Below, one piece after another: positions 28,606 to 43,268 of a stretch of 64,000 nt of DNA. Source of the stretch: Pseudomonadota bacterium. Lineage in GTDB: Bacteria; Pseudomonadota; Alphaproteobacteria; Rhizobiales; Aestuariivirgaceae. Location of the stretch: positions 62,001-126,000 of the forward strand of contig CAUJIO010000015.1 of NCBI GenBank assembly GCA_963205315.1, read 5' to 3'. The number at the start of each line of letters is the position of its first letter. Position 1 is the stretch's first letter. The notes beneath the pieces are model-generated. The model saw nothing but the letters and a program-made list of their open reading frames with translations, had not been told where the DNA came from and ran no database searches. A program made the translations under genes and the position numbers.

Positions 28606-29727
28606 TTACTTGAAGCTCGACTTGATCTTGTCGGTGGCCTCCGCGCCGTAAATGTCCTTCCACATTTCAAGAAGATTGTCCTTGGTGATAGGGGCTGCAG
28701 GCAGCGCCACATAGGCCGGCGCCTCCTTGCCCAATAGCGCATAAGCGGCAAGACGCGCTTCAACGATGCCTGCCTCTCGCGGGCGCTGCGAGCCCATGCC
28801 CTTCACCATGCCGCCTTTTGCCATTTCGATGGCAACGTTTTCGCCAAGGTCCTGATTGATGACAATGAGGTCGGTACGTCCGGCAGCGCGTGCTGCTGCG
28901 AGCACGCCCTCCGCAGGCGTATCCCACACAGCCCAAATGGCCTTGGTCTCAGGGTGAGCCGTCAGGATCGCACCTGCTGCCTTCTCGGCGTCGCCCGCAA
29001 AATCAGGACCGCCGATGCCCTGTTCGTCGACAATCTTGATGTCTGGATAGTTGTCGGCGATGGTCTTCTTGAAACCGTCGTAACGCTGCCGGGTCACGAA
29101 AAAGTCCGCGGCGTGGAAGACCAGGCCGATTTCACCCTTGCCGCCGAGGGCCTTGGCCATCAAATGGCCTGCCGCCACGCCATTTCCGTAGTTGTCGGCA
29201 GACACTGCGGAGACGTAATCAACCCCTGCCTTGAAGTCCTTCGGGATGTTGTCCATGAAAATGAGCTTGGTGCCCGCCTCGGCAGCCTTCCTGTAGGCGC
29301 CAGCCGTCGCCACGCCATCAACCGGAATCGACACGATGATGTTGGGCTTCTGCGCCATCACGGTTTCGATGTCGGCGACCTGCTTTTCCGGCTTGAAGCC
29401 AGCGTCGGTGACGGCGATCACGTTGATGCCGAGCCTTTCGAACTCTGACTTGAGACCCGCGGTCTGCGCATTGGTCCAGTCATTGCCGCCGATATGAAAG
29501 ACGAGGGCCGCGGTGGCATTCATCGCCTTGACCTTGGCGATCTCCTCGTCGCTGAGCGTGATGCTCGCGGCGGAAACCGGGTCTTCACCGTTCGGGCCCT
29601 TGCTCATCACCGTCTTGGCGAGCTCTTGCAGGGCAGCATCCGGGTCTGTCGCCCAGGCCGCAGTGGTGAAGCATCCGGCCAGTAGTGCGAGGGCTGCGAC
29701 CGTGCCCATGAATTTGCGCTTGTTCAT
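28606..29727 (-). CDS. Sugar ABC transporter periplasmic binding protein
   Basis: A 373-residue type-1 binding protein with a signal peptide (MNKRK, hydrophobic core, cleavage after AWA near residue 26). The mature part has the Peripla_BP_4 pattern: VFHIGGNDWTNAQ, SIPVDGVATAGAYR, DNIPKDFKAGVDY, SADNYG, and a C-terminal block NVAIEMAKGG. It delivers the sugar to the adjacent permease/ATPase. It is clearly homologous over its whole mature length to the product of 32186-33190, which lacks a signal peptide. A strong stem-loop follows the gene. Confidence 0.93.
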   Translation of the reverse strand: MNKRKFMGTVAALALLAGCFTTAAWATDPDAALQELAKTVMSKGPNGEDPVSAASITLSDEEIAKVKAMNATAALVFHIGGNDWTNAQTAGLKSEFERLGINVIAVTDAGFKPEKQVADIETVMAQKPNIIVSIPVDGVATAGAYRKAAEAGTKLIFMDNIPKDFKAGVDYVSAVSADNYGNGVAAGHLMAKALGGKGEIGLVFHAADFFVTRQRYDGFKKTIADNYPDIKIVDEQGIGGPDFAGDAEKAAGAILTAHPETKAIWAVWDTPAEGVLAAARAAGRTDLIVINQDLGENVAIEMAKGGMVKGMGSQRPREAGIVEARLAAYALLGKEAPAYVALPAAPITKDNLLEMWKDIYGAEATDKIKSSFK

Positions 29728-30572: not shown

Positions 30573-30638
30573 CTCGGTTCAACTCCCATTCAGACTGCCC
30601 GCATTGGCTGCTTGGCTTGTTGTCTCTGCCTTAACAAA

Positions 30639-30670
30639 CATTTTCTGCATATGTCAATCCATTTTCTGCA
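30639..30670. promoter_or_regulatory. Paired direct repeats, candidate ROK operator
   Basis: The 11-mer CATTTTCTGCA occurs twice (30639-30649 and 30660-30670), start to start 21 bases, i.e. two helical turns, in the A/T-rich divergent region between the isomerase gene and the ROK gene. The spacing would put two protein subunits on one face of the DNA. Confidence 0.6.
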
Positions 30671-30784
30671 AAAGTAGTGTAATTTTCCACGCAAGTTGCC
30701 AGGCTTGTGCTGAGTATGTTGATATTTCAGCGGAAATCTGCGAGAGTCCGGCCATGGAATCGATTTGTCGTAGTGGATTTGGCC

Positions 30785-32170
30785 ATGGTTGAAGGCGCTG
30801 GAAATGACAGTGCGCTGTTTGCCGACGCGCTTGAACGCGTCGATGCCGAGCAGCAAAGTCTGGCTCTCATTCTCAACTTGCTCCGCCGCGAGGAAGCCAA
30901 CACAAAGTTGGAAATCGAACGCATATCCGGCCTGGGCCGCGCCATCGTGGCTGACCGTGTTGCCAGTTTGGTAGAACTCATGCTCGCCGATGAAAGCGAA
31001 ATGGGAGTCGCAACCGGCGGCAGGGCCCCGCGCAACATCAAGTTCAATGATGGTGCCGCCCTGCTTCTGGTGGCACATCTCGACCAATCCACCATTGGCG
31101 TTGGCCTGACCAGTCTCGGTGGCAAACTGGTGTTTGCGCATCACGAACCAATCGACTCAGTGATGGACCACCAGGCTATTCTGGCGCGCATCACATCATT
31201 GTTCGACTGGGCGCTCGAGCAGCATTTGCGCGGACGCCCCATATGGGGCGTCGGCCTATCTGTCGAAGGTCCTGTCGAACAGCAGGCCAATCGGCTCTTT
31301 GCTTCCCCTGCCCTGCATTTCTTGCCGGGTTGGGACAGCGCGCGTATCGTCGAAAGCCTTGTTGATAAATATGCGGCACCGGTCTGGGTTCGCAACAACA
31401 CCCAGATGACAACACTGGGCGAATTGCGCGCGGGCAGCGGACGCGGCGCATCCGACATGTTGTTTGTAGACCTGGGCAAGGAAATTACCGCCGGCATTGT
31501 CTGCGACGGAAGGCTCTATCGCGGGGCACAGGGAGGTGCGGGCTTGATTGGACACATTGCAACCGGCGATGACAATCAGGCGCCATGCAGATGCGGCAAC
31601 CTCGGCTGCCTGGAAACCGTCGCAGGCGCCGATGCGATCGGCCGGAACGCAACCAAGGCCGCTCAAACCGGACAGAGCCCGGAATTGGCTGAACTGCTCG
31701 CGGCCAATGGCGAGTTGACGCCGACGGATGTGGCAACCGCCGCGATCATGGGTGATGCGTTTTCAGCCGAGCTTCTCGCCCGCAGCGGCAGGCAGATCGG
31801 CACAACAATTGCCGCCCTGACCAACGCCTTCAACCCGTCGCTCATCGTTCTGGGCGGGCCATGGGCGCAGCAGAGCGACATTCTTCTGGCCGCCATTCGC
31901 GAGGCAATCTACCGCCGCTCGCATCCGCTGGTGTCGCGCGATCTCAAGATCGTGCGCTCCCAGATGGGTGGTTCGGCCACGCTGACTGGCCTGGCGCTTT
32001 CGATGATCGACGATATCTTCGCGCCCTACACTCTGGCACGCTGGGTGAAACATGCTTCGCCATTGGCCCACCCTGGGATCGTCAACGCGGTTGCCGCAAC
32101 CAGGAAAGATGCTGCAATGTTTGCCAGGCGCCTGGTGCCACCGGCGCCCTCGGCCAAGGTTGCCTCATGA
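30785..32170 (+). CDS. ROK-family transcriptional regulator
   Basis: A 461-residue sugar-responsive regulator. An N-terminal winged helix (about residues 20-65, LALILNLLRREEANTKLEIE) is followed by the ROK kinase-like fold: FVDLGKEITAGIVCDG for the ATPase-like strand and the zinc motif CRCGNLGCLE at about residue 263. I begin it at the ATG at 30785; the upstream ATG at 30707 lies close to the candidate operator and gives an atypical N-terminus. It is divergent from the sugar operon and is followed after 15 bases by the cytosolic binding-protein homologue, so the two are co-transcribed. Confidence 0.88.
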   Translation: MVEGAGNDSALFADALERVDAEQQSLALILNLLRREEANTKLEIERISGLGRAIVADRVASLVELMLADESEMGVATGGRAPRNIKFNDGAALLLVAHLDQSTIGVGLTSLGGKLVFAHHEPIDSVMDHQAILARITSLFDWALEQHLRGRPIWGVGLSVEGPVEQQANRLFASPALHFLPGWDSARIVESLVDKYAAPVWVRNNTQMTTLGELRAGSGRGASDMLFVDLGKEITAGIVCDGRLYRGAQGGAGLIGHIATGDDNQAPCRCGNLGCLETVAGADAIGRNATKAAQTGQSPELAELLAANGELTPTDVATAAIMGDAFSAELLARSGRQIGTTIAALTNAFNPSLIVLGGPWAQQSDILLAAIREAIYRRSHPLVSRDLKIVRSQMGGSATLTGLALSMIDDIFAPYTLARWVKHASPLAHPGIVNAVAATRKDAAMFARRLVPPAPSAKVAS

Positions 32171-32185
32171 CAGGGAGTTCCTGAT

Positions 32186-33190
32186 ATGCCAGTAACAGGC
32201 CTTGGCCCACACGGCGAACGTGCAGCTTCGCCGCTGCTCCTGAAGTTGAACGAGGCTGACGCACAGGAGATTGCCGAGCGCCGTTTTTCGGTCGGCGTTG
32301 TCCTGCATACGACACAAAGCGACTGGGCGCGCCAGCAGCTTGCAGGCATCTCCTCGATGCTGGGCCAGCACAATGCTGCGATCGTTGACGTGGTCGATTG
32401 CGGCTTTGACGCCGGCCAGCAACTGTCGGCACTGACGCGCATGGCCAATGAAGACATTGATGCGGTCATAAGCATACCCATCGGCAATGCGGATGTCGCG
32501 GAGCCGCACCGCGCCATCCACCAGGTCGGCAAGAAGCTCATCCTTCTCGACAATGCCCCAACGGGCCTGGCCGCGGGCGCAGAGTACGCCTGCGTCGTCT
32601 CCGCCGACAATTTTGGCCTGGGCGAGATTGCCGCCCGGCAGTTGAGCGCCGCGATAGAAACGGGCCAGAAAATCGGTTTACTGTCCTACGCTGTGGATTT
32701 CTTTGCTACCAACGAGCGCGAAATCGCATTCCGCAAATGGATGAACAGGAACCGTCCCGATCTAACCATTGCGCAGGCCAAGTTCCATTCGTTGGCCGAT
32801 GTGAGGGGCATAATGCAGGCGTTGCTTGCATCGGAAGGCCCGCTTGGCGGCTTGTTCGTTGTGTGGGACGAGCCAGCCGTGCTTGCCGCCGGTGTTCTCG
32901 AGCAGGCACAGCACACGACACCGATCGCCACGATTGATCTCGGCAACGCCGTCGCCATCAACATGGCAAAAGGAGGCCTGATCAAGTCGGTTGGGGCGCA
33001 ACGCCCCTATGACCAGGGCAAGGCTGCAGCGGCAGCCGCGCTTCTTGCGCTGCTTGGCCGGCCCCTGCCATCGTGGATCGCCTTGCCGGGGCTTGCCGTG
33101 GTGCGCGACAATGTTGTCGAAGCCTACCAATCAATTTGGCATGCCCCCGCTCCAACGGAGCTTCTGAAGTTGCTGAGAGCAGCAAAATGA
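32186..33190 (+). CDS. Cytosolic copy of a sugar-binding protein (no signal peptide), putative sensor
   Basis: A 334-residue type-1 periplasmic-binding fold with no signal peptide: the N-terminus is polar (MPVTGLGPHGERAASPLLLK) and reaches the first strand without a hydrophobic segment. It aligns end to end with the transporter's own binding protein at 28606-29727. Shared blocks include the DW pair, SIP, KLI-x-x-DN-x-P, VSADN, DFF-x-T, VWD-x-PA, MAKGG and QRP. The ligand pocket is probably kept. It lies 15 bases after the ROK gene with a good AGGGAG site. I infer an intracellular sugar sensor or ROK co-regulator; a moonlighting storage protein or a secreted protein using an unusual route are less likely alternatives. 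Confidence 0.8.
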   Translation: MPVTGLGPHGERAASPLLLKLNEADAQEIAERRFSVGVVLHTTQSDWARQQLAGISSMLGQHNAAIVDVVDCGFDAGQQLSALTRMANEDIDAVISIPIGNADVAEPHRAIHQVGKKLILLDNAPTGLAAGAEYACVVSADNFGLGEIAARQLSAAIETGQKIGLLSYAVDFFATNEREIAFRKWMNRNRPDLTIAQAKFHSLADVRGIMQALLASEGPLGGLFVVWDEPAVLAAGVLEQAQHTTPIATIDLGNAVAINMAKGGLIKSVGAQRPYDQGKAAAAAALLALLGRPLPSWIALPGLAVVRDNVVEAYQSIWHAPAPTELLKLLRAAK

Positions 33191-33618: not shown

Positions 33619-35442
33619 ATGGTTCATGACCCACACAGATCAGCTGGCCGGAAGGTCTCGACAAGTATCGCGAAACCAAACTTGAGGTCTGCGCCGGAAG
33701 GGCCCTACGAGGGTGAAGACCCGCACTGGCAAGTCGGGATCACTCGAAGCGAAAGCAGCCGGTTCATTGATTTCGTGGAGGAGCTTGAAAACGAGACAGA
33801 TTCAACGCTTCCCCTGAAAGGCGGCTACCGGGAGATGCGCATCTTCATTCATCTCTTGCGCCATCACCTCAGCGGCCGTCTCGTGACCGCTTCCTCGCTG
33901 GCTGATGCGTCCAGCCTCTCGTACGGGACTGCTATGCGGGCGCTGGACGATCTTGTGAAGAGAGGGCTCATCATCAAGAGGCCACGTACAGTCTCCGGCA
34001 AGTCCTTTTCGTTGCACCCATCGGCTGGACTGCTCGATCAGTGGCAGAAATTCGAGCAGCGCGTCAAGTCGATGTTGGACTCCAAGTTCGCCCGGGAAAA
34101 CATCGAGGAACCGACCGCCTATGACATCAATGGCGGAGTTCCCGCAGCTTCGCGAGTCGTGCCACCTCCGGCGGCATTGGAAAAGAAGCTGAACCTCACC
34201 CGGGGTCTTAGAATCCTCGTTCATGCCGATCCAACATTCGTGGCAATGAACTCATTGCGCAAGCAATTCGAGATGATCTTTGGCGTGGAGATTAGGAGCC
34301 GTGCGCTTTCAATCGACCGTCTTCGCGCCGAGATAATCGACAACAGCCTCGCCAAGTCATCGCGATACGACATTATAGCTTGTGACTTGCCTTGGTTTGG
34401 TGAAATGGCTTCCGCCGGCAGGCTTCTTGCCCTCGATCCGCTGATCGACGAGAACGAGTTTGATCGACGCGATTTTCACGCCGACGCCTTGGCGAGCGCA
34501 TGTTATTGGGGCGTCCAGTATGGAATTCCGATTCTGACAACAGCGGAAATCCTCGTCTATCGCACCGATCTGTTTGCTGGCGCGGGAATTGCGCCGCCCA
34601 CCACTGCGGCTGAAACTCTCAGTGCGGTGCGCGCACTGCACCGTCCGGCCGCCGGATTGAGTGGCATTGCATGGAATGGTGGTCGGGGGACGCCCCTCGG
34701 CCACACATTCATCATGGTCATGGGCGCATTTGGCCAGCCAGTCGTCAACTTGCGGCGATTGCCGAATGGATTCGACGCCGAGAATGTCAGTGGCGAGCAA
34801 ATGCGGCCCATGTTCATGTCAGACGCCGCCCGCGATACGGCCGAATATCTGCGCGAACTTGTTCAATATTCTCCGCCCAACATCCTGCGCATGACTTGGT
34901 ATGATCGCGCCATGGCCTATGCTCAGGGCAAAGTTGCAAGTGCCTATTCGCATTCGCTACTCGCACAACTTTATGAACTCAATGAATCGTCGCCAGCCTA
35001 CCGGATGACCGGCTACCTTCCTCATCCTGCAGGGCCGCAAGGAGCACCCATTGTTCCCCTTGGCGGCTATGCTCTGGCAATCCCGGCCAACATCGAGCGC
35101 GAGCGAATCGGTCCGGTATGGACAGCGCTGCGGACGCTGACTTCGCCCAGCGCAGCAAAACTCTACGCCGCCAATGGCAGTCTGGCGTGGTCACGATTCA
35201 GCATAATCCGGGACCAAGAGATAAGATCCATTTCGCCAATGATTCCAGCTGTCGACCAAATGGCACGGCGCAGTCTGTTGCGCATGTGGCCACGCCCCCC
35301 GATCGCCGGGATATCCGATGTCATCGGTATTGCCGGCCAGGAAATCCACGACATGTTGTCCGGCCTCAAGTCGATCAACCAGGCGCTGTCAAATGCACAG
35401 AATCGAAGTGATGCGGTGATGCAGCAGCACGGTCATTACTGA
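33619..35442 (+). CDS. Fused winged-helix DNA-binding / family-1 solute-binding regulator
   Basis: A 607-residue cytoplasmic protein without a signal peptide or membrane segment. Residues about 66-133 form a winged helix (LVTASSLADASSLSYGTAMR, then DDLVKRGLIIKR), followed by a linker. Residues about 196-570 form a family-1 extracellular solute-binding domain: LRILVHADPT, YDIIACDLPW, YGIPILTTAEILVYRTDLF and GGYALAIPA are the usual landmarks. It is encoded just upstream of, and in line with, a MalE-type importer operon that has its own secreted binding protein. I infer a one-component regulator that senses the imported compound. E. coli SgrR is a known analogue, with a different (family-5) binding domain. 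Start assignment is weakly supported. Confidence 0.85.
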   Translation: MVHDPHRSAGRKVSTSIAKPNLRSAPEGPYEGEDPHWQVGITRSESSRFIDFVEELENETDSTLPLKGGYREMRIFIHLLRHHLSGRLVTASSLADASSLSYGTAMRALDDLVKRGLIIKRPRTVSGKSFSLHPSAGLLDQWQKFEQRVKSMLDSKFARENIEEPTAYDINGGVPAASRVVPPPAALEKKLNLTRGLRILVHADPTFVAMNSLRKQFEMIFGVEIRSRALSIDRLRAEIIDNSLAKSSRYDIIACDLPWFGEMASAGRLLALDPLIDENEFDRRDFHADALASACYWGVQYGIPILTTAEILVYRTDLFAGAGIAPPTTAAETLSAVRALHRPAAGLSGIAWNGGRGTPLGHTFIMVMGAFGQPVVNLRRLPNGFDAENVSGEQMRPMFMSDAARDTAEYLRELVQYSPPNILRMTWYDRAMAYAQGKVASAYSHSLLAQLYELNESSPAYRMTGYLPHPAGPQGAPIVPLGGYALAIPANIERERIGPVWTALRTLTSPSAAKLYAANGSLAWSRFSIIRDQEIRSISPMIPAVDQMARRSLLRMWPRPPIAGISDVIGIAGQEIHDMLSGLKSINQALSNAQNRSDAVMQQHGHY

Positions 35443-35651
35443 TGGCTTTGCCAGCGAATTGAGTTGTGCTTGCAGATTGTCCAAAATGGATAGTTTTCAT
35501 TCATCCTGGATATCTTTGAGGCTTCTGCAGCTACCCCGCTTGCCCTAGCAAAACGGCGTCGATCGCCGCACTCCGTTGCAATGCTCCCGTGTTCCGGATG
35601 GAGCTTTCGGTTGCGCGGTGATCCAGAGTCGAGGAACTCAGGGAGGAAACA

Positions 35652-36971
35652 ATGACACTGAAACTGTTCCGCGCGCTTCTCACGGCCGGTGTTCTTGCTG
35701 CCGGTTGGACAAGTGCCGCCCAGGCGCAAGAATGCAAGCCGGAAGACAAGAAGATCCTGACCGTTTGGGACCAGTTCGAGTATTACGGCATGACAGCCTC
35801 GGGCCCCGCCGTCGAGAAGATCCATGAGGCGTTCCAGAAGGAACATCCGTGTGTCGTGTTCTCGCGTTCGGTGTTTGGCGGCGGCTTCCCGATCCGCAAC
35901 GCCGTTGAATTGGCGCTGACATCAGGCGAAGCCCCCGACGTGTTCTATTCTTGGCCATCGGGCGCTGGCCTAACCACCTATGCCAAGGCCGGTTACCTGG
36001 CTGACCTTTCGCCCTATGCGAAGAAATACAAGTGGTCTGAGCGGTTGCCCGATTGGGCGATCGCCCGCAACACCTATCAGGGCAAGCAATATGCATACCC
36101 TTGGGAGCAGGATCTCGAGTACGTTTACTACAACAAGGAAGCCTTCAAGGAACTCGGGATTGACGTACCGAAGTCCTTCGACGACGTTCTCGCCTGGTGC
36201 GACAAAGCCAGTGCCGCGGGCAAGATTGCCATCTCTCTTGGCAACGGCGATCTCTGGCCCGCCGTCAACATGTGGACCGACGTGACCGCACTTCTCGGCG
36301 GCCGCCAGGTGGGTCTGGACCTGCTGCAGGACAAGCAGGACTGGAACTCCGCTGAGCCGAAGGCCGCTCTCGATGCCATCTTGAAGATGGTCGAACACAA
36401 ATGCTTCAGCCCAGGCTTCAATGGAACATCCTACAACGACGCTCTGCTGCAGTTCTATTCCGGCCAGGCAACGGCCATCTGGACCGGAACCTGGGTGATC
36501 CAGGATGTTGTCCGCAACATGCCGGAGGACAAGCTCGACATCTTCTACATGCCGCCGTTCGATGCCACCCATCCGCAAGCAACACACATGTCGGAAGGTT
36601 CGGCCTGGTACGTTTGGTCGGGGTCGAAGGTCAAGGATCTCGCCGCGGAGTATGTCAACTTCATGTCCGACCCGCGCTGGCTGGAGACTTGGATCAAGGA
36701 TGGTTATACCATTCCGATCCAGAAAAAGCCGATCGACTTCGCCCAGTATGGGATTTCCGGCGTGATTTCGAAAGCCTTCAACACGGGGATGGCGATGGTT
36801 GACCGCAATGTGGATGCGTTTCACACCACCGCGCCGCCGCGCGTGACCTTCGTCATGTACCACGATATTCAAGGGGTGCTGAGCGGCGACACCAAGCCCG
36901 AAGACTTCCTCAAGAAACTCGACGAGCAGATGGAAGTGGCCAAGCAGGCCGGCGAAGTCTGGGCGCCGTAA
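35652..36971 (+). CDS. ABC transporter extracellular solute-binding protein, family 1
   Basis: A 439-residue secreted binding protein of the MalE class with a signal peptide (hydrophobic core 6-20, cleavage after AQA near residue 25). Landmarks are VFYSWPSGAGLTTYAKAGYL, YAYPWEQDLEYVYYNKEAF and EGSAWYVWSG. A GGGAGGAA site precedes the ATG. It heads the importer operon with two MalF/G-type permeases and a MsmK-type ATPase, and so is expected to bind an oligosaccharide or sugar derivative. The gene ends just before a stem-loop. Confidence 0.92.
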   Translation: MTLKLFRALLTAGVLAAGWTSAAQAQECKPEDKKILTVWDQFEYYGMTASGPAVEKIHEAFQKEHPCVVFSRSVFGGGFPIRNAVELALTSGEAPDVFYSWPSGAGLTTYAKAGYLADLSPYAKKYKWSERLPDWAIARNTYQGKQYAYPWEQDLEYVYYNKEAFKELGIDVPKSFDDVLAWCDKASAAGKIAISLGNGDLWPAVNMWTDVTALLGGRQVGLDLLQDKQDWNSAEPKAALDAILKMVEHKCFSPGFNGTSYNDALLQFYSGQATAIWTGTWVIQDVVRNMPEDKLDIFYMPPFDATHPQATHMSEGSAWYVWSGSKVKDLAAEYVNFMSDPRWLETWIKDGYTIPIQKKPIDFAQYGISGVISKAFNTGMAMVDRNVDAFHTTAPPRVTFVMYHDIQGVLSGDTKPEDFLKKLDEQMEVAKQAGEVWAP

Positions 36972-37049: not shown

Positions 37050-37925
37050 ATGATTGAGTCCCGTGGCAGAAAAAGCCCCTATCTGTTTCTGGCGCCCGCG
37101 ATCATCTATCTCGGGATTTGGATCTACTATCCGATCGCCAAGAACTTCTATCTGAGTTTCCTTGGCACCGAGGGTACTCACGGGGCAGATTTCCGTTTCG
37201 TCGGCCTGCAGAACTACCACCAACTCCTCAGCGACGAACTTTTCCACCGCGCGCTCCTCCACAATCTGGTGTGGGTCTTGCTCAGCATCCTCGTTCCGGT
37301 AGTCATAGGCCTGGTACTGGCAGTCCTCTTGGTTCACAAGCGAACCCGCCTGTTTTACTCGGCCATCTTCTTTCTTCCTGTGACCGTGGCTCCGATCATG
37401 GCTGCCGTCGTGTGGGGCTGGATCTATAATCCGACATTCGGCGCGCTCAATCAGATGCTGACGCTGATTGGCCTCGACTCCTTGGCTCAACCATGGCTCG
37501 GCGACGCGGCAACCGCCCTGGTCAGCGTCAACATGATTGGAAGCTGGGGCTACTATGGCTTTTGCACGCTGATCTTCCTGGCGGGCCTGCAGAACATCGA
37601 TCCGGAGATCTTTGAAGCGGCGCGCATCGACGGCGCCAATGCGCTCCAACAGTTCCGGTCGATCACCTTGCCGTTGCTTAAGCCCACCCTCACCTTCGTC
37701 CTCGTCTACACCACGATCGGATCGATGAAATTCTTCGATATCATCTACGTGGCGACAAAGGGCGGGCCCGACAACTCAACGCAGATCGTCGCGGTTTACA
37801 TGTTCGACCTCTTCATCCGCCAGGGTGACGTGAACTATGCCGCGGCCATGAGCGTGGTCCTGACGGCGATCATTCTGGCGATGAGTCTTCTCGCCATCCG
37901 CAACATGACAAGGAAGCCATCGTGA
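37050..37925 (+). CDS. Sugar ABC transporter permease (MalF/UgpA type)
   Basis: A 291-residue inner-membrane protein with six predicted helices and the docking loop EAARIDGANALQQFRSITLP, typical of carbohydrate importers of the CUT1 class. It is followed with a 4-base overlap (GTGA) by the partner permease. Together with the MsmK-type ATPase and the secreted binding protein it forms a complete importer. Confidence 0.92.
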   Translation: MIESRGRKSPYLFLAPAIIYLGIWIYYPIAKNFYLSFLGTEGTHGADFRFVGLQNYHQLLSDELFHRALLHNLVWVLLSILVPVVIGLVLAVLLVHKRTRLFYSAIFFLPVTVAPIMAAVVWGWIYNPTFGALNQMLTLIGLDSLAQPWLGDAATALVSVNMIGSWGYYGFCTLIFLAGLQNIDPEIFEAARIDGANALQQFRSITLPLLKPTLTFVLVYTTIGSMKFFDIIYVATKGGPDNSTQIVAVYMFDLFIRQGDVNYAAAMSVVLTAIILAMSLLAIRNMTRKPS

Positions 37926-38767
37926 GTCCGGCGCTGCGAGGGCTTCTCACTCGTTCGGGCGCAGGCTTCGTATCGAATGGGATTCTTGTCATTTTTGTGC
38001 TGATTTCGTTGTTTCCCGTCTATCTGATGTTCATTACCTCGCTCAAGTCTCAGGCTGAACTCATCAGCAATGTCTTCGCCCTTCCGCATGACCCCAAATG
38101 GGGAAATTACTATCTCGTGTTGATCCAGCGCGGCTACTACAAGGCCGTGATCAACAGCCTCATCTTTGCCGGTTCGGTGACAGTGCTCACCGTTCTCCTT
38201 TCGGTTCTTGCGGCATTTGCCTTTGCGGTTTTCGACTTCGCGGGCAAGCGTACGTTTTTCGTGTTGGTACTTGTCGGTCTCATGGTCTCCGAGGTCTCGA
38301 TCCTCATCCCCGTTTACAACCTGCTGAAGTCGATGAACCTGCTGAATACCTATGTCGGGATGATACTTCCGCAGATCGCCCTTGGCCTGTCGTTCGGGAT
38401 CTTCCTGATGACGACATTCTTCCGCGAAGTGCCACGCGAACTCATCGATGCCGCACGCCTCGATGGCTGCACCGACTGGCAGCTCCTGACAAAGATCATG
38501 ATTCCCGTTGGGCTGCCGGGCATCAATGCACTGGCAGTGATCGAATTCCTATGGGCATGGAACAGCTTCTTTCTTCCTCTGGTGATCGCCACCAAGCAGG
38601 AGCTGATGCCACTCAGCGTTTCTGTCATCGACTTCATGGGACGCTTCACGTTCAACTATGAACTTGTCGCCACAACATGCGTCATCATGTTTGTGCCAAT
38701 ACTCATCCTCTACATTTTCACGCAACGCAGCTTCCGCCGCGGAGTGACCATGGGAGCCGTCAAATGA
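37922..38767 (+). CDS. Sugar ABC transporter permease (MalG/UgpE type)
   Basis: A 281-residue inner-membrane protein beginning with GTG at 37922, overlapping the preceding stop. It has six predicted helices and the docking loop DAARLDGCTDWQLLTKIMIP, and ends with the short positively charged tail found in MalG proteins. It is the second membrane subunit of the CUT1-type importer. Confidence 0.92.
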   Translation: MSPALRGLLTRSGAGFVSNGILVIFVLISLFPVYLMFITSLKSQAELISNVFALPHDPKWGNYYLVLIQRGYYKAVINSLIFAGSVTVLTVLLSVLAAFAFAVFDFAGKRTFFVLVLVGLMVSEVSILIPVYNLLKSMNLLNTYVGMILPQIALGLSFGIFLMTTFFREVPRELIDAARLDGCTDWQLLTKIMIPVGLPGINALAVIEFLWAWNSFFLPLVIATKQELMPLSVSVIDFMGRFTFNYELVATTCVIMFVPILILYIFTQRSFRRGVTMGAVK

Positions 38768-39876
38768 CAGCGTCATCCGCCAAACTCGACCAAGTATCAG
38801 CCGGCCCCCGTGTCTCCATCCGCCAAGTCGAAAAGAGTTTCGGCGGTACCAAAGTGCTCAAAGGCGTTGATCTCGAGATCAACAGTGGCGAATTCCTGAT
38901 CCTGCTGGGGCCTTCGGGATGCGGAAAGACAACGCTTCTGCGCATCATTGCTGGTCTTGAGAAAGCAAATCGCGGGGAAATCTGGCTCGGCGGATCGGAA
39001 GTGAGCGCACTCGAGCCGAAGGAACGCAACGTCGCGATGGTGTTCCAGAACTATGCACTCTATCCGCACATGAACGTCTATGACAACCAGGCCTTCTCGT
39101 TGCGGCTGCGCGGGATGTCCAATGCCCGGATCAAGGGGCGCGTTGAGGGTGCAGCCGCAATCCTCGGCCTGCAAACTCTCCAGAACCGTTTCCCGCGCCA
39201 GCTTTCCGGCGGGCAGAGGCAGCGAGTTTCAATGGGGCGAGCGATCGTCCGTTCGCCCGGCATCTTTTTGTTCGATGAGCCACTCTCGAACCTGGATGCA
39301 AAACTGCGCGTGCACATGCGCGGCGAGATTAAGGATCTTCACCACCGGCTTGGCACCACCTCAATCTACGTGACCCACGATCAGGTCGAGGCAATGACCA
39401 TGGGCGACCGAATTGTCGTCATGAATCAGGGCGTCATCGAACAAGTCGGCCATCCGCTGGATGTCTTCGACAAGCCGAAAAATCTGTTTGTGGCCGGTTT
39501 TGTCGGATCTCCGGCCATGAATCTTCTGACTGGATCTATGGCCATGGAAGGCGGCCATCCCATTGTCCGGTGTTCGCATGAATTGACGGTGCCGATGCCG
39601 CAATCAGCCATGAAATTCAATGGCCGAGCCGTAACGCTCGGAATCAGGCCCCATCAACTCGGCATCGATGTGCGCGGCAGCTACGAAGCCGAAATCAGGG
39701 ACATTCAGCCGACAGGTGTCGAGACCATCTTGCTCTGCCGTCTCGCCGGTCAGGATGTGCTGGTGCAGACCACCGAACGGATTACCGGAAAGGCAGGTGA
39801 GCGCATCCGGTTGTCGATGAACGCCGGCAATCTCCACCTGTTCGATACGGCGAGCGGTGAGAGGCTTGAGGTTTGA
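38764..39876 (+). CDS. Sugar ABC transporter ATP-binding protein (MsmK/UgpC type)
   Basis: A 370-residue ATPase with Walker [10 protein letters not shown], signature [15 protein letters not shown], Walker [13 protein letters not shown] and switch His in [10 protein letters not shown], followed by a C-terminal TOBE/OB-type domain. I start it at the ATG overlapping the permease stop (ATGA at 38764-38767); an earlier in-frame ATG at 38677 is inside the permease gene. It powers the CUT1 importer of this operon. Confidence 0.92.
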
Positions 39877-39941
39877 CAGGGTGGCGAAGGCGACAGGCGG
39901 GACTGGAGTGAAAGCCGATGGGAAGATTTGAGGATTGTTCA

Positions 39942-41369
39942 ATGCGTCACCGCATCGCCATTGATGTCATCGACCCTCTCGGTCTCGGGAGGAGTGCCGA
40001 GCCTGTCGAATTCAGTCTCAGCTTTGTGGTTTACCAGCCTGCCCGCAGGGGAATTGCCGTCATCGATGAAGCCGGTGCGCGCATCTCAAGCCAGATCGTC
40101 GCCGCCAGTGAAAATTCTGCCGGACGCCTCGTCTTCGCAACCCTATGCTTCATTGCGGAGATTCCCTCCGGGGTCACAAGAAAGCGCTACTATGTGTATC
40201 TCGGCGATGAACCCGCGACGGCGCCGGAAGATGGCGGCGGCATCGTGCGGCTCAAGCCAGAGCTTGCTGATGGCTACAGGCGTCTTGATACCGGGGCCTA
40301 CATACTCGAACTCTGCCGCGGAACAGCCAAAGGCGACGGTGGAAGCAAGTGGGGAATCCGGCATTTCGAGCACAAGGCCCAGCGCATCAATCTTATAGCA
40401 GGTAACAAGAACGCATTTGGCGGTGTCTACGGCCCGTTCTTCACGCCGGAGAACGGCTTGGTCAATCCGCCCGCCCATGCGCTCGCCGAGATCGAACCGG
40501 TCACTGAAGGACCGGTCAAATGCCAATACCGCATGCGCGTAAAGGTGCCCAACGGGCTTAGACCCGAGCTCAAAGACAAGACGATCGAGGTGTGGTGGAG
40601 CTTCTACCATCGTTCTCCTTGGTTCGTGCGTACCTACATCGTCGATGATTACGAATCGACGGTTGATGGCAGATCGGTGAAAAACCGCATCACTGTGGGC
40701 GATGAGATCGAAAGCGGCAAGAAGAACCTGCTGCTATCCACCTATCGTCATCATGATGGCACTGGCTACCGCGCCGGCGATCTCTATGCGGAAATTCTGC
40801 TCGAGAGATTGAAGGACCTCCAGTCACGCAATCCAGCCGCAGTCAGCGCCGCTATGGCGAAACTGGGAATTGAGCCAAAGGAGGACCCGGCAAGCTGGCA
40901 TTGGGACAACTACTGGCGAATGTTCTGTGTGATCGAGGGTGCCTTGGAACGGCCAGTTCTCGAAGAGGAAGTTGACCGCATCTGGCGTTCCGCCAATCAG
41001 ATCGTCTGGTCGGACAAGAACCACAATTTGCTGAAATTCACGGACGATGCCATCGATGTGAATCGCGAGCCGCAACAGACGATCTTTTCCCTCAATGCGC
41101 AAAAAACCTGCGAGTACAGTCCCCTCACTGGATTCTCCTTCGTCCGTTATGTGAACAGACCGGTACCACGCATGCAGATCGTGCAGCGCTATGACAGCGG
41201 ATGGGTGAACTGGGGCACAAACGGCGAGAACGAATATCCTGAACTGCCGTCCGGCTCCACGATCTGGTCGGCCTATGGCCAGTTTCCGAATTGGCGCGCC
41301 GAGGCGGATTGTATGGAACAACCCTTGGCGGTTGCCATCAGCGGCTTCGAAAAAATGTACTCACTCTAG
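39942..41369 (+). CDS. Unknown beta-rich protein in sugar importer operon
   Basis: I do not recognise this protein of about 475 residues. It has no signal peptide, begins with a hydrophobic strand (RIAIDVIDPLG) and is rich in beta-strand and aromatic patterns throughout, e.g. EVWWSFYHRSPWFVRTYIVDD. The layout recalls the beta-sandwich or super-sandwich domains of carbohydrate-active enzymes, but no catalytic motif can be named. It lies between the importer ATPase and an isomerase, so it probably acts inside the cell on the imported sugar or sugar derivative. A start at 39918 with its own ribosome site is also possible. Confidence 0.65.
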   Translation: MRHRIAIDVIDPLGLGRSAEPVEFSLSFVVYQPARRGIAVIDEAGARISSQIVAASENSAGRLVFATLCFIAEIPSGVTRKRYYVYLGDEPATAPEDGGGIVRLKPELADGYRRLDTGAYILELCRGTAKGDGGSKWGIRHFEHKAQRINLIAGNKNAFGGVYGPFFTPENGLVNPPAHALAEIEPVTEGPVKCQYRMRVKVPNGLRPELKDKTIEVWWSFYHRSPWFVRTYIVDDYESTVDGRSVKNRITVGDEIESGKKNLLLSTYRHHDGTGYRAGDLYAEILLERLKDLQSRNPAAVSAAMAKLGIEPKEDPASWHWDNYWRMFCVIEGALERPVLEEEVDRIWRSANQIVWSDKNHNLLKFTDDAIDVNREPQQTIFSLNAQKTCEYSPLTGFSFVRYVNRPVPRMQIVQRYDSGWVNWGTNGENEYPELPSGSTIWSAYGQFPNWRAEADCMEQPLAVAISGFEKMYSL

Positions 41370-41384
41370 TATGGTAGAACCTCC

Positions 41385-42212
41385 ATGAAACTCTCCTTCA
41401 ACACCTGGGTCTATTCGAGCTTCCCGGTATGGGTCCCATCCTATCCCCTCGACGAAACCATAAAGCGTATTGCCCGGATTGGATACGATGGTGTCGAGAT
41501 CGGCGCCGCCAGCCCACATGCCTTTCCTGACTATGTAGGCAAGAACCGGCGCCGCGAGATCAAGAGCATGCTTGAATCAAACGGCATCGCACTGTCCAGC
41601 ATGTTGCCCGCACCGGGCGGCGGGCCGGGTTTCAACGCAGCTTCTCCCCTGCCTGAGGAACGCGCCAATACCATAGACCAATATATCAAGGTTGCGCAGC
41701 TCTGCTCGGATCTGGGCGGCAGCAGAATTCTGTATGTCGCCGGCTGGCAGGTTTTTGGAACGGCCACTGAACAGGCCTGGGATTGGAGCCGTGACGCCCT
41801 GACGGTCATTGCCAAGGCAGCGGCCGATATGGGCGTTACTGTGGTAGTCGAGCCCACCTCGGCCGACAGCAACCTGGTGGAGAGTTGCGGCGGCGCGCTT
41901 CGAATGATGCGTGAATGCGGTCGCCAGAATGTGAAGGTCATGTTTGATACATATCATGCGCTCTATCGCAACGAAGTGCCCACTGACTACGTGTATCAGA
42001 TGGGCAAGGACCTCGATCATGTGCATCTGGCGGATGTCGGCCGGGCGGCCCCCGGAGACGGGCGTGTGGACTACCGGGCACTCGTCGCGTCTCTGATGGA
42101 TGTCGGTTTCGATGGTTATCTCACGATGGAAGTCGGCTTCGACCGGCGTGCGGTCGAGCCGGATATGATTGCGCGCAGGGCATTCGAGTACATGAAACCG
42201 TTGGTTCGCTAA
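41385..42212 (+). CDS. Sugar phosphate isomerase/epimerase family protein
   Basis: A 275-residue TIM-barrel enzyme of the xylose-isomerase-like superfamily. Probable metal ligands are Glu in YDGVEIGA, Glu in TVVVEPTS, Asp/His in MFDTYHA, His in HVHLAD and the last Glu in TMEVGFD. A metal-dependent isomerase or epimerase of the compound brought in by the preceding transporter is likely; a 3-keto-sugar enzyme is possible, given the dehydrogenase that follows. Confidence 0.85.
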   Translation: MKLSFNTWVYSSFPVWVPSYPLDETIKRIARIGYDGVEIGAASPHAFPDYVGKNRRREIKSMLESNGIALSSMLPAPGGGPGFNAASPLPEERANTIDQYIKVAQLCSDLGGSRILYVAGWQVFGTATEQAWDWSRDALTVIAKAAADMGVTVVVEPTSADSNLVESCGGALRMMRECGRQNVKVMFDTYHALYRNEVPTDYVYQMGKDLDHVHLADVGRAAPGDGRVDYRALVASLMDVGFDGYLTMEVGFDRRAVEPDMIARRAFEYMKPLVR

Positions 42213-42242: not shown

Positions 42243-43268
42243 ATGAAAGCCGTGTTCTTGCCCGGAAACAAGCAGGTGATCGTCCGCGACGTACCTGTCC
42301 CCGAACCTGGCGACGATGAAGTTCTTATTCAGGTGAAGGCATCCTGCATTTGCCGAAGCGACTTGAGTCTGTACTATGGCAACGCCGTAGTGGGTGGAGC
42401 GGCCGCTGGAAAATGCATCACTGGCCACGAGCCGGCAGGCGTAATCACCAAGATCGGCAGCGGCGTGAAGTGGTTCAAGCCCGGTGACCGGGTTGCGGCC
42501 TATCTTGCCATTGGATGCGGAGTCTGTGCTTTCTGCAGAATGGGAAACTATCATCTGTGCCCGAACTGGACTTGTCTTGGCTTTACGGCGCACGGCGGCA
42601 ATGCCGAATTCCTGACGCTCCCCGAGCGGAACTGCTTGCGTATTTCCGACTCGATGTCGTTTGTAGCCGCTGCCGTTTCGACGGATGCATTCGGTACCCT
42701 CTACAGCGCGGCGAAGAAGCTCATGATATCAGGCTCAAGCACGGTGGGGATTTGGGGTTTGGGCCCCATGGGAACCAGCGGCGTACTGGTTGCGAAGGCG
42801 CTTGGCGCCCGGGTGGTCGCGCTTGATCCCATCGCCGCGCGGCGAAGTTTCGCGCAGGGCCTTGGCGCCGATCTGGTTCTTGACCCTTCCGATCCTGATA
42901 CGGCAGGAGCGATTGCCGAATTCTCCGGTGGCACGGGCCTCACTGCGGCCATTGATTGTTCGGGCAATCAGACCGCCCAGAATATGGCCCTGGACTCGAC
43001 AATGCCTCTCGGCCGCGTCGCATTCGTGGGAGAAGCCCGCGAAACAACCATCAAGCCGAGCGACCAGCTCATTCGCAAACAGTTGACGTTAATTGGTTCC
43101 TGGTACTTCGCTATCCATGAATACGATGAGATTACGCGTCTGATCGATGCAAGGAAGATTGACCTTGAGCGGCTTGCAACACATCGTTTCGCTCTCGACG
43201 ACGCCGACACAGCATTTCGGCTTTTCGACGAGCGGAAAACGGAGAAAGCCGTCTTCACGATGAGCTGA
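42243..43268 (+). CDS. Zinc-dependent alcohol dehydrogenase (MDR family)
   Basis: A 341-residue medium-chain dehydrogenase. The catalytic zinc site is Cys37 with His62-Glu63 in GHE, the structural zinc site has Cys92, Cys95, Cys98 and Cys106, and the NAD-binding motif is GLGPMG. Both sites are complete, so it should be active. As the last gene of the importer operon it probably oxidises the imported sugar alcohol or sugar; threonine or sorbitol dehydrogenase-like activity cannot be distinguished by eye. Confidence 0.9.
   Translation: MKAVFLPGNKQVIVRDVPVPEPGDDEVLIQVKASCICRSDLSLYYGNAVVGGAAAGKCITGHEPAGVITKIGSGVKWFKPGDRVAAYLAIGCGVCAFCRMGNYHLCPNWTCLGFTAHGGNAEFLTLPERNCLRISDSMSFVAAAVSTDAFGTLYSAAKKLMISGSSTVGIWGLGPMGTSGVLVAKALGARVVALDPIAARRSFAQGLGADLVLDPSDPDTAGAIAEFSGGTGLTAAIDCSGNQTAQNMALDSTMPLGRVAFVGEARETTIKPSDQLIRKQLTLIGSWYFAIHEYDEITRLIDARKIDLERLATHRFALDDADTAFRLFDERKTEKAVFTMS

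Follow-up and report, generated by a model that had tools for sequence, protein, structure and literature searches.

Two transcription factors, SgrR of E. coli and DsvR of Vibrio cholerae, are homologues that combine a helix-turn-helix with a family-5 solute-binding domain (SBP_bac_5), and the source describing them names the SgrR gene itself, SgrS/SgrT and the SetA exporter as the targets of SgrR (PMC13060122). The 64,000-nucleotide stretch of DNA analysed here, which we call the window, encodes at positions 33619–35442 (+ strand) a 607-residue fusion regulator in which a predicted MarR-type winged helix (the head) precedes a family-1, MalE-class solute-binding domain (the clamp). Periplasmic-binding-protein-like folds have been reused as cytosolic sensors in LacI- and LysR-type regulators and in the AraC-type regulator Btr, all of which differ from the fusion in drawing on other binding-protein families and other DNA-binding heads. 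Given these regulators together with SgrR and DsvR, the pairing of a head with a clamp is as such already known. A sequence-only reading of the window had taken the fusion for something other than an SgrR, and no description of its exact architecture, a MarR head joined to a family-1 clamp, was found in the open-licence literature, which was searched partly by narrow word combinations.

The Pfam profile SBP_bac_1 matches residues 245–513 of the window protein (77.5 bits, E = 2.4e-21), exceeding its cut-off of 26, while MarR_2 matches residues 78–122 (22.1 bits, E = 1.7e-4) and does not reach its curated cut-off of 27. In an alignment of 30 relatives with 50–62% identity to the window protein (A2), all members match SBP_bac_1 and 13 match MarR_2 at E ≤ 0.01, the best with an E-value of 8.8e-7. 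At the same threshold of 0.01 the window protein itself matched only SBP_bac_1, MarR_2, MarR and TrmB, with neither the SgrR N-terminal domain nor SBP_bac_5 among them, and NCBIfam returned no match at E ≤ 0.001. A BLAST comparison with residues 1–433 of E. coli SgrR gave a best local match of E = 3.2, and the claimed distinction from SgrR was upheld.

The weak MarR_2 match is backed by AlphaFold2 models of both the whole protein and the head. Calculated from 30 sequences, the model of the whole protein (pLDDT 84.9, pTM 0.81) consists of an unstructured tail (residues 1–41), a helix (43–63), a winged helix-turn-helix (70–134; 33826–34020, + strand), a second helix (136–157), a disordered linker (159–178; 34093–34152, + strand) and a two-lobed clamp, with pLDDT values below 50 in the tail and the linker. 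Three helices (70–85, 91–98 and 102–114) and two strands (118–122 and 130–134) make up the predicted winged helix, which is also obtained when the head is modelled alone (pLDDT 91.3). A Foldseek search with the head returned 29 matches at E ≤ 0.001, the ten best being chains of MexR, MarR, PefR and HpaR (best E = 5.6e-5), and the TM-scores by query length are moderate, ranging from 0.45 to 0.73 among the 50 matches listed. At the level of predicted fold, the winged helix and its flanking helices place the head in the MarR superfamily. The clamp (residues 197–603; 34207–35427, + strand) is predicted as a complete domain and with confidence. It aligns in Foldseek along its length with the solved structure 5iai (TM 0.91 by target length), which is also a sequence match of the window protein (E = 1.6e-25) and the best match of a 30-member profile searched against solved structures (E = 7.9e-43, profile positions 196–592). 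None of the 48 solved-structure matches of this profile at E ≤ 1e-5 carries the name of a DNA-binding protein.

A signal peptide is expected of exported SBP_bac_1 binding proteins, and none was found in the window protein. The best 12-residue Kyte-Doolittle mean within its first 70 residues is -0.0, compared with 1.83 for the secreted binding protein encoded at 35652, and a signal-peptide-like stretch is present in secreted relatives, unlike in the window protein. A few relatives do have hydrophobic 12-residue windows of up to 2.16, which are probably helices of the head. Input and output domains are thus joined in one apparently soluble protein without a signal peptide, as in one-component regulators, and the earlier assignment of a winged helix and a complete family-1 domain to one apparently cytoplasmic protein agrees with the SBP_bac_1 match, the AlphaFold2 and Foldseek results and the missing signal peptide.

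A scan of one genome per species yielded 409 stretches that encode relatives, and the 80 best were retained for analysis. Head and clamp are encoded at all of these best 80 loci, at L070 in part; the match begins at query residues 4–27 in 79 of them and at residue 79 in L070, which lies at a contig end. A single open frame spans the match in 79 (partially in L070), L073 having none. Conservation across the best 80 of 409 loci argues that the fusion is neither a chance event nor an assembly artefact. The hosts are mainly Alphaproteobacteria and Gammaproteobacteria (Halomonas, Vreelandella, Marinobacterium, Granulosicoccaceae, Natronospirillum and others), and the two loci of the 80 that lie in bins named SAR202 (L054) and Bacteroidetes (L070) may be misbinned. 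The genome of the window holds two further full-length copies, with 34–35% identity.

Within the host’s family, matches at E ≤ 1e-40 occur in 7 of 69 genomes; one of these genomes (G056, locus L011) encodes a secreted protein without the head, which leaves the fusion in 6 of 69 genomes, in one of them (G023, locus L012) cut off by the contig. The secreted relative L011 falls beside or inside the fusion clade in a quick tree with long branches, a placement that would fit a single origin of the fusion, several origins, or loss of the head. Across the class, 10 of 387 Alphaproteobacteria genomes match at E ≤ 1e-30, and nine carry the fusion, three of these being genomes of 1.4 Mb, whereas G122 has a secreted relative only. 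A head-only profile (A3) searched against the 387 genomes gave 12 matches at E ≤ 2.4e-28, all of them frames of 564–641 codons that correspond to the fusions already counted in the class. The next matches have E-values of 4.3e-16 and weaker, and the six that were examined by Pfam all proved to be response regulators whose output head is a winged helix of MarR type or a related one. Plasmids contribute 34 further records, 26 of which are annotated as ‘extracellular solute-binding protein’ at the match, and as long as public annotation lists such proteins as extracellular transport parts, a probable family of regulators of uptake and catabolic operons in Alpha- and Gammaproteobacteria goes unnoticed. 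Three fusion members (L110, L111 and L112) occur in Alphaproteobacteria genomes of ~1.4 Mb, where few regulators would be expected.

In the window, the fusion gene adjoins the genes of a CUT1 importer, which include one for a secreted binding protein, as the sequence-only reading had it. All genes that follow are on the + strand. The binding-protein gene (35652–36971; family 1 by Pfam, with a hydrophobic N-terminal stretch), which is the proposed target of regulation, is followed by genes for a MalF/UgpA-like permease (37050–37925), a MalG/UgpE-like permease (37922–38767) and a UgpC-like ATPase (38677–39876), the true start of the last probably being further in; these three were assigned by Pfam and NCBIfam. 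A 483-residue protein (39918–41369), for which Pfam and NCBIfam gave no match at E ≤ 0.001, has a counterpart in L026 and is encoded between the ATPase and the gene for a TIM-barrel protein resembling sugar isomerases and epimerases (41385–42212; Pfam AP_endonuc_2). A zinc-type dehydrogenase (42243–43268; Pfam ADH_N and ADH_zinc_N) completes the set.

This neighbourhood is not that of the family as a whole. Neighbouring genes of the best 80 of 409 loci were assigned labels by BLAST comparison with annotated relatives and with the genes of the window. A CUT1 permease was found at 21 loci, permease or binding-protein genes of the ribose-type CUT2 class at 68, and neither at five, the CUT1 and CUT2 counts being lower bounds, with some loci truncated at contig ends. 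A general association of the family with CUT1 importers was therefore rejected; CUT1 adjacency holds for the window and is a trait of one clade only. Three operon types can be distinguished. Type A, that of the window, combines the CUT1 importer with the TIM-barrel protein and the zinc dehydrogenase, often together with CUT2 genes and a ROK regulator. Type B has a CUT2 importer and a divergent short-chain dehydrogenase (SDR), often with Xaa-Pro-peptidase-like and 2-oxoacid-dehydrogenase genes, and type C, found in Halomonas and its kin, a CUT2 importer, an intradiol dioxygenase, a maleylacetate reductase, an amidohydrolase and an SDR. In a quick tree of the clamp domain the operon types form clades of 27, 29 and 27 rows (SH-aLRT 99, 96 and 90), 15 rows being without an operon label, and the 68 labelled rows require three changes among the three states where two is the minimum. 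The clade of the regulator thus matches the type of the operon.

Four loci (L019, L020, L021 and L024) hold a diverged subfamily of the regulator beside conserved Gfo/Idh/MocA, YciI and butanediol-dehydrogenase-like genes. Three of the four also have intradiol dioxygenase and maleylacetate reductase genes, and this gene content suggests conversion of a cyclic polyol into hydroxyquinol-like compounds.

Compared with the binding protein of the window’s own importer, the sensor has only a remote likeness (27% over 125 residues, E = 2e-4), and we rejected the possibility that it is a recent copy of that protein. It is of the CUT1 class even at loci with a CUT2 importer, which, together with the remote likeness, argues that it is not simply a re-used importer binding protein; its ligand is no less likely to be an internal metabolite than the imported solute. 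The same two observations fit a degenerate sensor, in which the clamp no longer binds a ligand and only provides a surface for dimerisation or docking, while the regulator is constitutive or driven by a partner protein, and a match to the family-1 profile alone is no proof that the clamp still binds a ligand. However, many clamp residues are invariant over the 30 aligned sequences, among them W259, E310, R315, D317, W352, R356, W427 and Y443, and the AlphaFold2 clamp is whole, so that we consider a degenerate sensor unlikely. Invariance extends to the disordered N-terminal tail, where residues 26–30 of the window protein form a PEGPY motif (33694–33708, + strand) whose PEGP is present in all 30 rows of the A2 alignment. 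PEGP[YF] occurs in 80 of 107 fusion ORFs, at loci of all three operon types, and the 27 ORFs without it are 23 of the distant subfamilies and four (L014, L070, L075 and L096) that are cut or mis-started.

To locate a possible operator, we searched trimmed non-coding gaps adjoining the fusion gene and its presumed targets for motifs; fixed 320-bp flanks, which covered coding sequence of the neighbours in B and C loci, were dropped. The gaps are approximate, as at least two of six translated B gaps (L028 and L030) still hold the part of the CUT2 binding-protein gene that encodes its signal peptide. Near-identical regions were removed before counting (24 to 19, 13 to 10, 23 to 21 and 4 to 4), and all operator counts take related loci as they stand, without kinship correction. 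In the 19 CUT1-side gaps of type A loci, the motif finder returned TgTCCAg.tTGGAcA with a log-likelihood ratio of 182.9, compared with 48.3–52.6 for three shuffles. The proposed operator consensus is the inverted repeat TRTCCA-N3-TGGAYA, to which 18 of the 19 gaps conform in at least 10 of 12 positions and 14 in all 12, the score of 10 being reached in 1.9% of shuffles. A weight matrix trained solely on these 19 regions and then applied to other gaps exceeded the 99th shuffle percentile in 21 of 21 divergent SDR/CUT2 gaps (type B) and in all four gaps between a CUT2 binding-protein gene and the fusion gene, with 5 of 150 other intergenic regions doing so. Matrix scores separate type B gaps from other gaps with a Mann-Whitney p of 2.7e-13, calculated with related loci treated as independent. 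Sites are paired at a distance of 20 bp in 19 of the 21 type B gaps, and 23 of 32 gaps between a permease and the fusion contain a site of at least 10/12, often a further one preceding the fusion gene.

The 80 loci (1.385 Mb) contain 39 exact sites in 35 loci, where ten shuffles give 0–1. The 37 that lie between labelled genes all adjoin the fusion gene or fall within the SDR/CUT2 gap, and the other two are inside a permease gene. The 4.67 Mb genome of the window has one exact site, the sequence TGTCCAAAATGGATA at 35478–35492, which matches TRTCCANNNTGGAYA exactly and belongs to the motif kept in relatives. It is located between the regulator gene and the importer, starting 36 bp beyond the 3' end of the fusion gene and ending 160 bp ahead of the CUT1 binding-protein start codon. 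The conserved palindrome lends indirect support to the DNA binding upstream of 35652 that the sequence-only reading had suggested, and to dimeric binding of a palindrome as in the MarR superfamily. A possible second, weaker site, CATTCATCCTGGATA at 35498–35512, follows at the 20-bp spacing of the type B pairs; it agrees with TRTCCANNNTGGAYA at 10 of 12 positions and with the strict form at 8, and is by itself without significance.

The fit is not equally good everywhere. In the nearest relative, L026 from Bauldia, the CUT1 region reaches only 9/12, and the exact site is absent from four of five Halomonas-type genomes searched, two of these four matching the reversed control pattern. Halomonas-type loci instead have TGACCAGATTGGAT-like variants preceding the SDR gene, with no such site at L034; a score of at least 10 is reached in 23 of 26 regions, from genomes that are close kin, and in 3.6% of shuffles. 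The Halomonas-type loci and the closest relative thus fit the operator poorly, which counts against the regulator reading. Exact matches are also common in the class, occurring in 152 of 387 Alphaproteobacteria genomes and in 6 of the 9 with the fusion, and ten fusion genomes from named loci hold 12 exact sites, of which four are at known loci and eight elsewhere. Place and conservation, not rarity, therefore carry the argument for the operator.

The palindrome might alternatively belong to another regulator of the cluster, such as the ROK protein encoded at 30707, with the fusion acting elsewhere or nowhere. Such regulators are indeed near: ROK genes are labelled at 11 and LysR genes at four (L049, L057, L067 and L102) of the best 80 of 409 loci, and one B locus has an HxlR-type gene at its far end (L030:603–995). 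However, the CUT1-trained matrix exceeded the 99th shuffle percentile in none of ten ROK-side promoters, and ROK, LysR and FCD labels are all missing from the 21 B loci used. Of 28 unlabelled ORFs in two B-type and two C-type loci (L029, L030, L049 and L055), 27 lack a DNA-binding family by Pfam, and the four of L029 include no HxlR gene. Since ROK and LysR labels are absent from the B loci and a single HxlR gene was found among the 28 ORFs, we regard another owner of the site as decidedly improbable; the fusion protein is the one regulator that all the contexts share.

The ROK gene of the window is itself followed, within 30707–33190, by a gene for an RbsB-like protein (Peripla_BP_4) without an evident signal peptide, its best hydrophobic 12-residue mean being 0.98 compared with 2.25 for the secreted one encoded at 28606. 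The pair occurs at 10 of the best 80 of 409 loci and is possibly a second, two-gene use of a binding protein as a cytosolic sensor. The intergenic regions between the ROK and TIM-barrel genes of type A loci (30573–30706 in the window) contain a different conserved motif, GCA.AAG(N8)CTT.TGC, which may be the operator of the ROK protein; its log-likelihood ratio is 94.8 in ten ROK-side regions and 35–40 in shuffles.

The position of the palindrome gives a hint about the sign of control. In 18 of the 19 type A regions (L026 was left out), a -10-like sequence peaks ~30 nt past the site, with a score of 3.74 where the 95% point of shuffles is 3.36, and this would place the site near -50. Many activators bind at such a position, and the peak in CUT1-type promoters slightly favours activation by the regulator. 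Type B promoters have no -10 peak above the 95% point of shuffles. In the window itself, the -10 at the expected distance past the site is poor, and no sigma-70-like promoter was found in the gap, sigma-70 and terminator scans being at chance level.

The explanation that we consider likely is that the fusion is a ligand-responsive one-component transcription regulator of the adjacent uptake or catabolic operon, using TRTCCA-N3-TGGAYA sites. We infer that the protein dimerises, binds DNA and binds a ligand. According to this model the MarR-type head, probably as a dimer, would bind TRTCCA-N3-TGGAYA, often at two sites 20 bp apart, and occupy the promoter of the operon next to the fusion gene, which in the window is the CUT1 operon starting at 35652; in many relatives it would also bind ahead of the fusion’s own gene. 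The MalE-class clamp would stay in the cytosol and close around a small solute resembling a sugar, polyol or cyclitol, a ligand class that we guess from the surrounding enzymes and from related solved clamps. Tethered by helix 136–157 and the loose linker, the closing clamp may shift the seating of the heads on DNA. A more specific version, which we put forward tentatively, would make the fusion one of a widespread, so far undescribed group of transcription factors. In these, the MalE-type clamp would act directly on a MarR dimer bound at tandem TRTCCA-N3-TGGAYA sites, gating it in response to a metabolite other than the imported solute, and the PEGPY tail would have a function of its own, perhaps in contacting RNA polymerase or in covering the clamp as a lid. 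Sensing of such a metabolite would account for the same class of sensor beside CUT1 and CUT2 importers. That the protein is instead a secreted or surface binding protein with a chance N-terminal helical extension, as the annotation of the plasmid matches would have it, is highly improbable, given its lack of a signal-peptide-like stretch, the MarR fold of the extension in Foldseek and the conserved promoter palindrome.

With a precise candidate operator at hand, the ligand, the regulon and the sign of control are directly testable. Few ligand-driven protein hinges have been studied as thoroughly as the MalE clamp, and a natural fusion of MalE and MarR modules would show how hinge motion becomes DNA release or binding; it could also serve as a template for sugar biosensors.

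Among known systems, family-1 (CUT1) binding proteins such as 5iai (Arad_9887), 1eu8 and MalE3 share the clamp fold and sequence profile with the fusion but are parts of importers, whereas the fusion has a DNA-binding head and no signal peptide. The response regulators at L126, L128 and L132–L135 have a MarR-type output head (A3 profile E-values down to 4.3e-16), and their input is a receiver domain instead of a solute-binding domain. Members of the MarR family (MexR, MarR and MepR) have the head fold with its flanking helices, and a MarR operator is a short inverted repeat, as is proposed for the fusion. Classic MarR proteins, however, are small and bind their ligands within the dimer core, while in the fusion a separate clamp of 400 residues follows the head, and the Pfam MarR scores of the window protein are below cut-off. 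SgrR and DsvR likewise join an N-terminal helix-turn-helix to a C-terminal solute-binding domain in a transcription factor, but that domain is of family 5, and the SgrR targets given are not an importer operon of the window’s kind (PMC13060122). The fusion thus works like SgrR in outline without being one.
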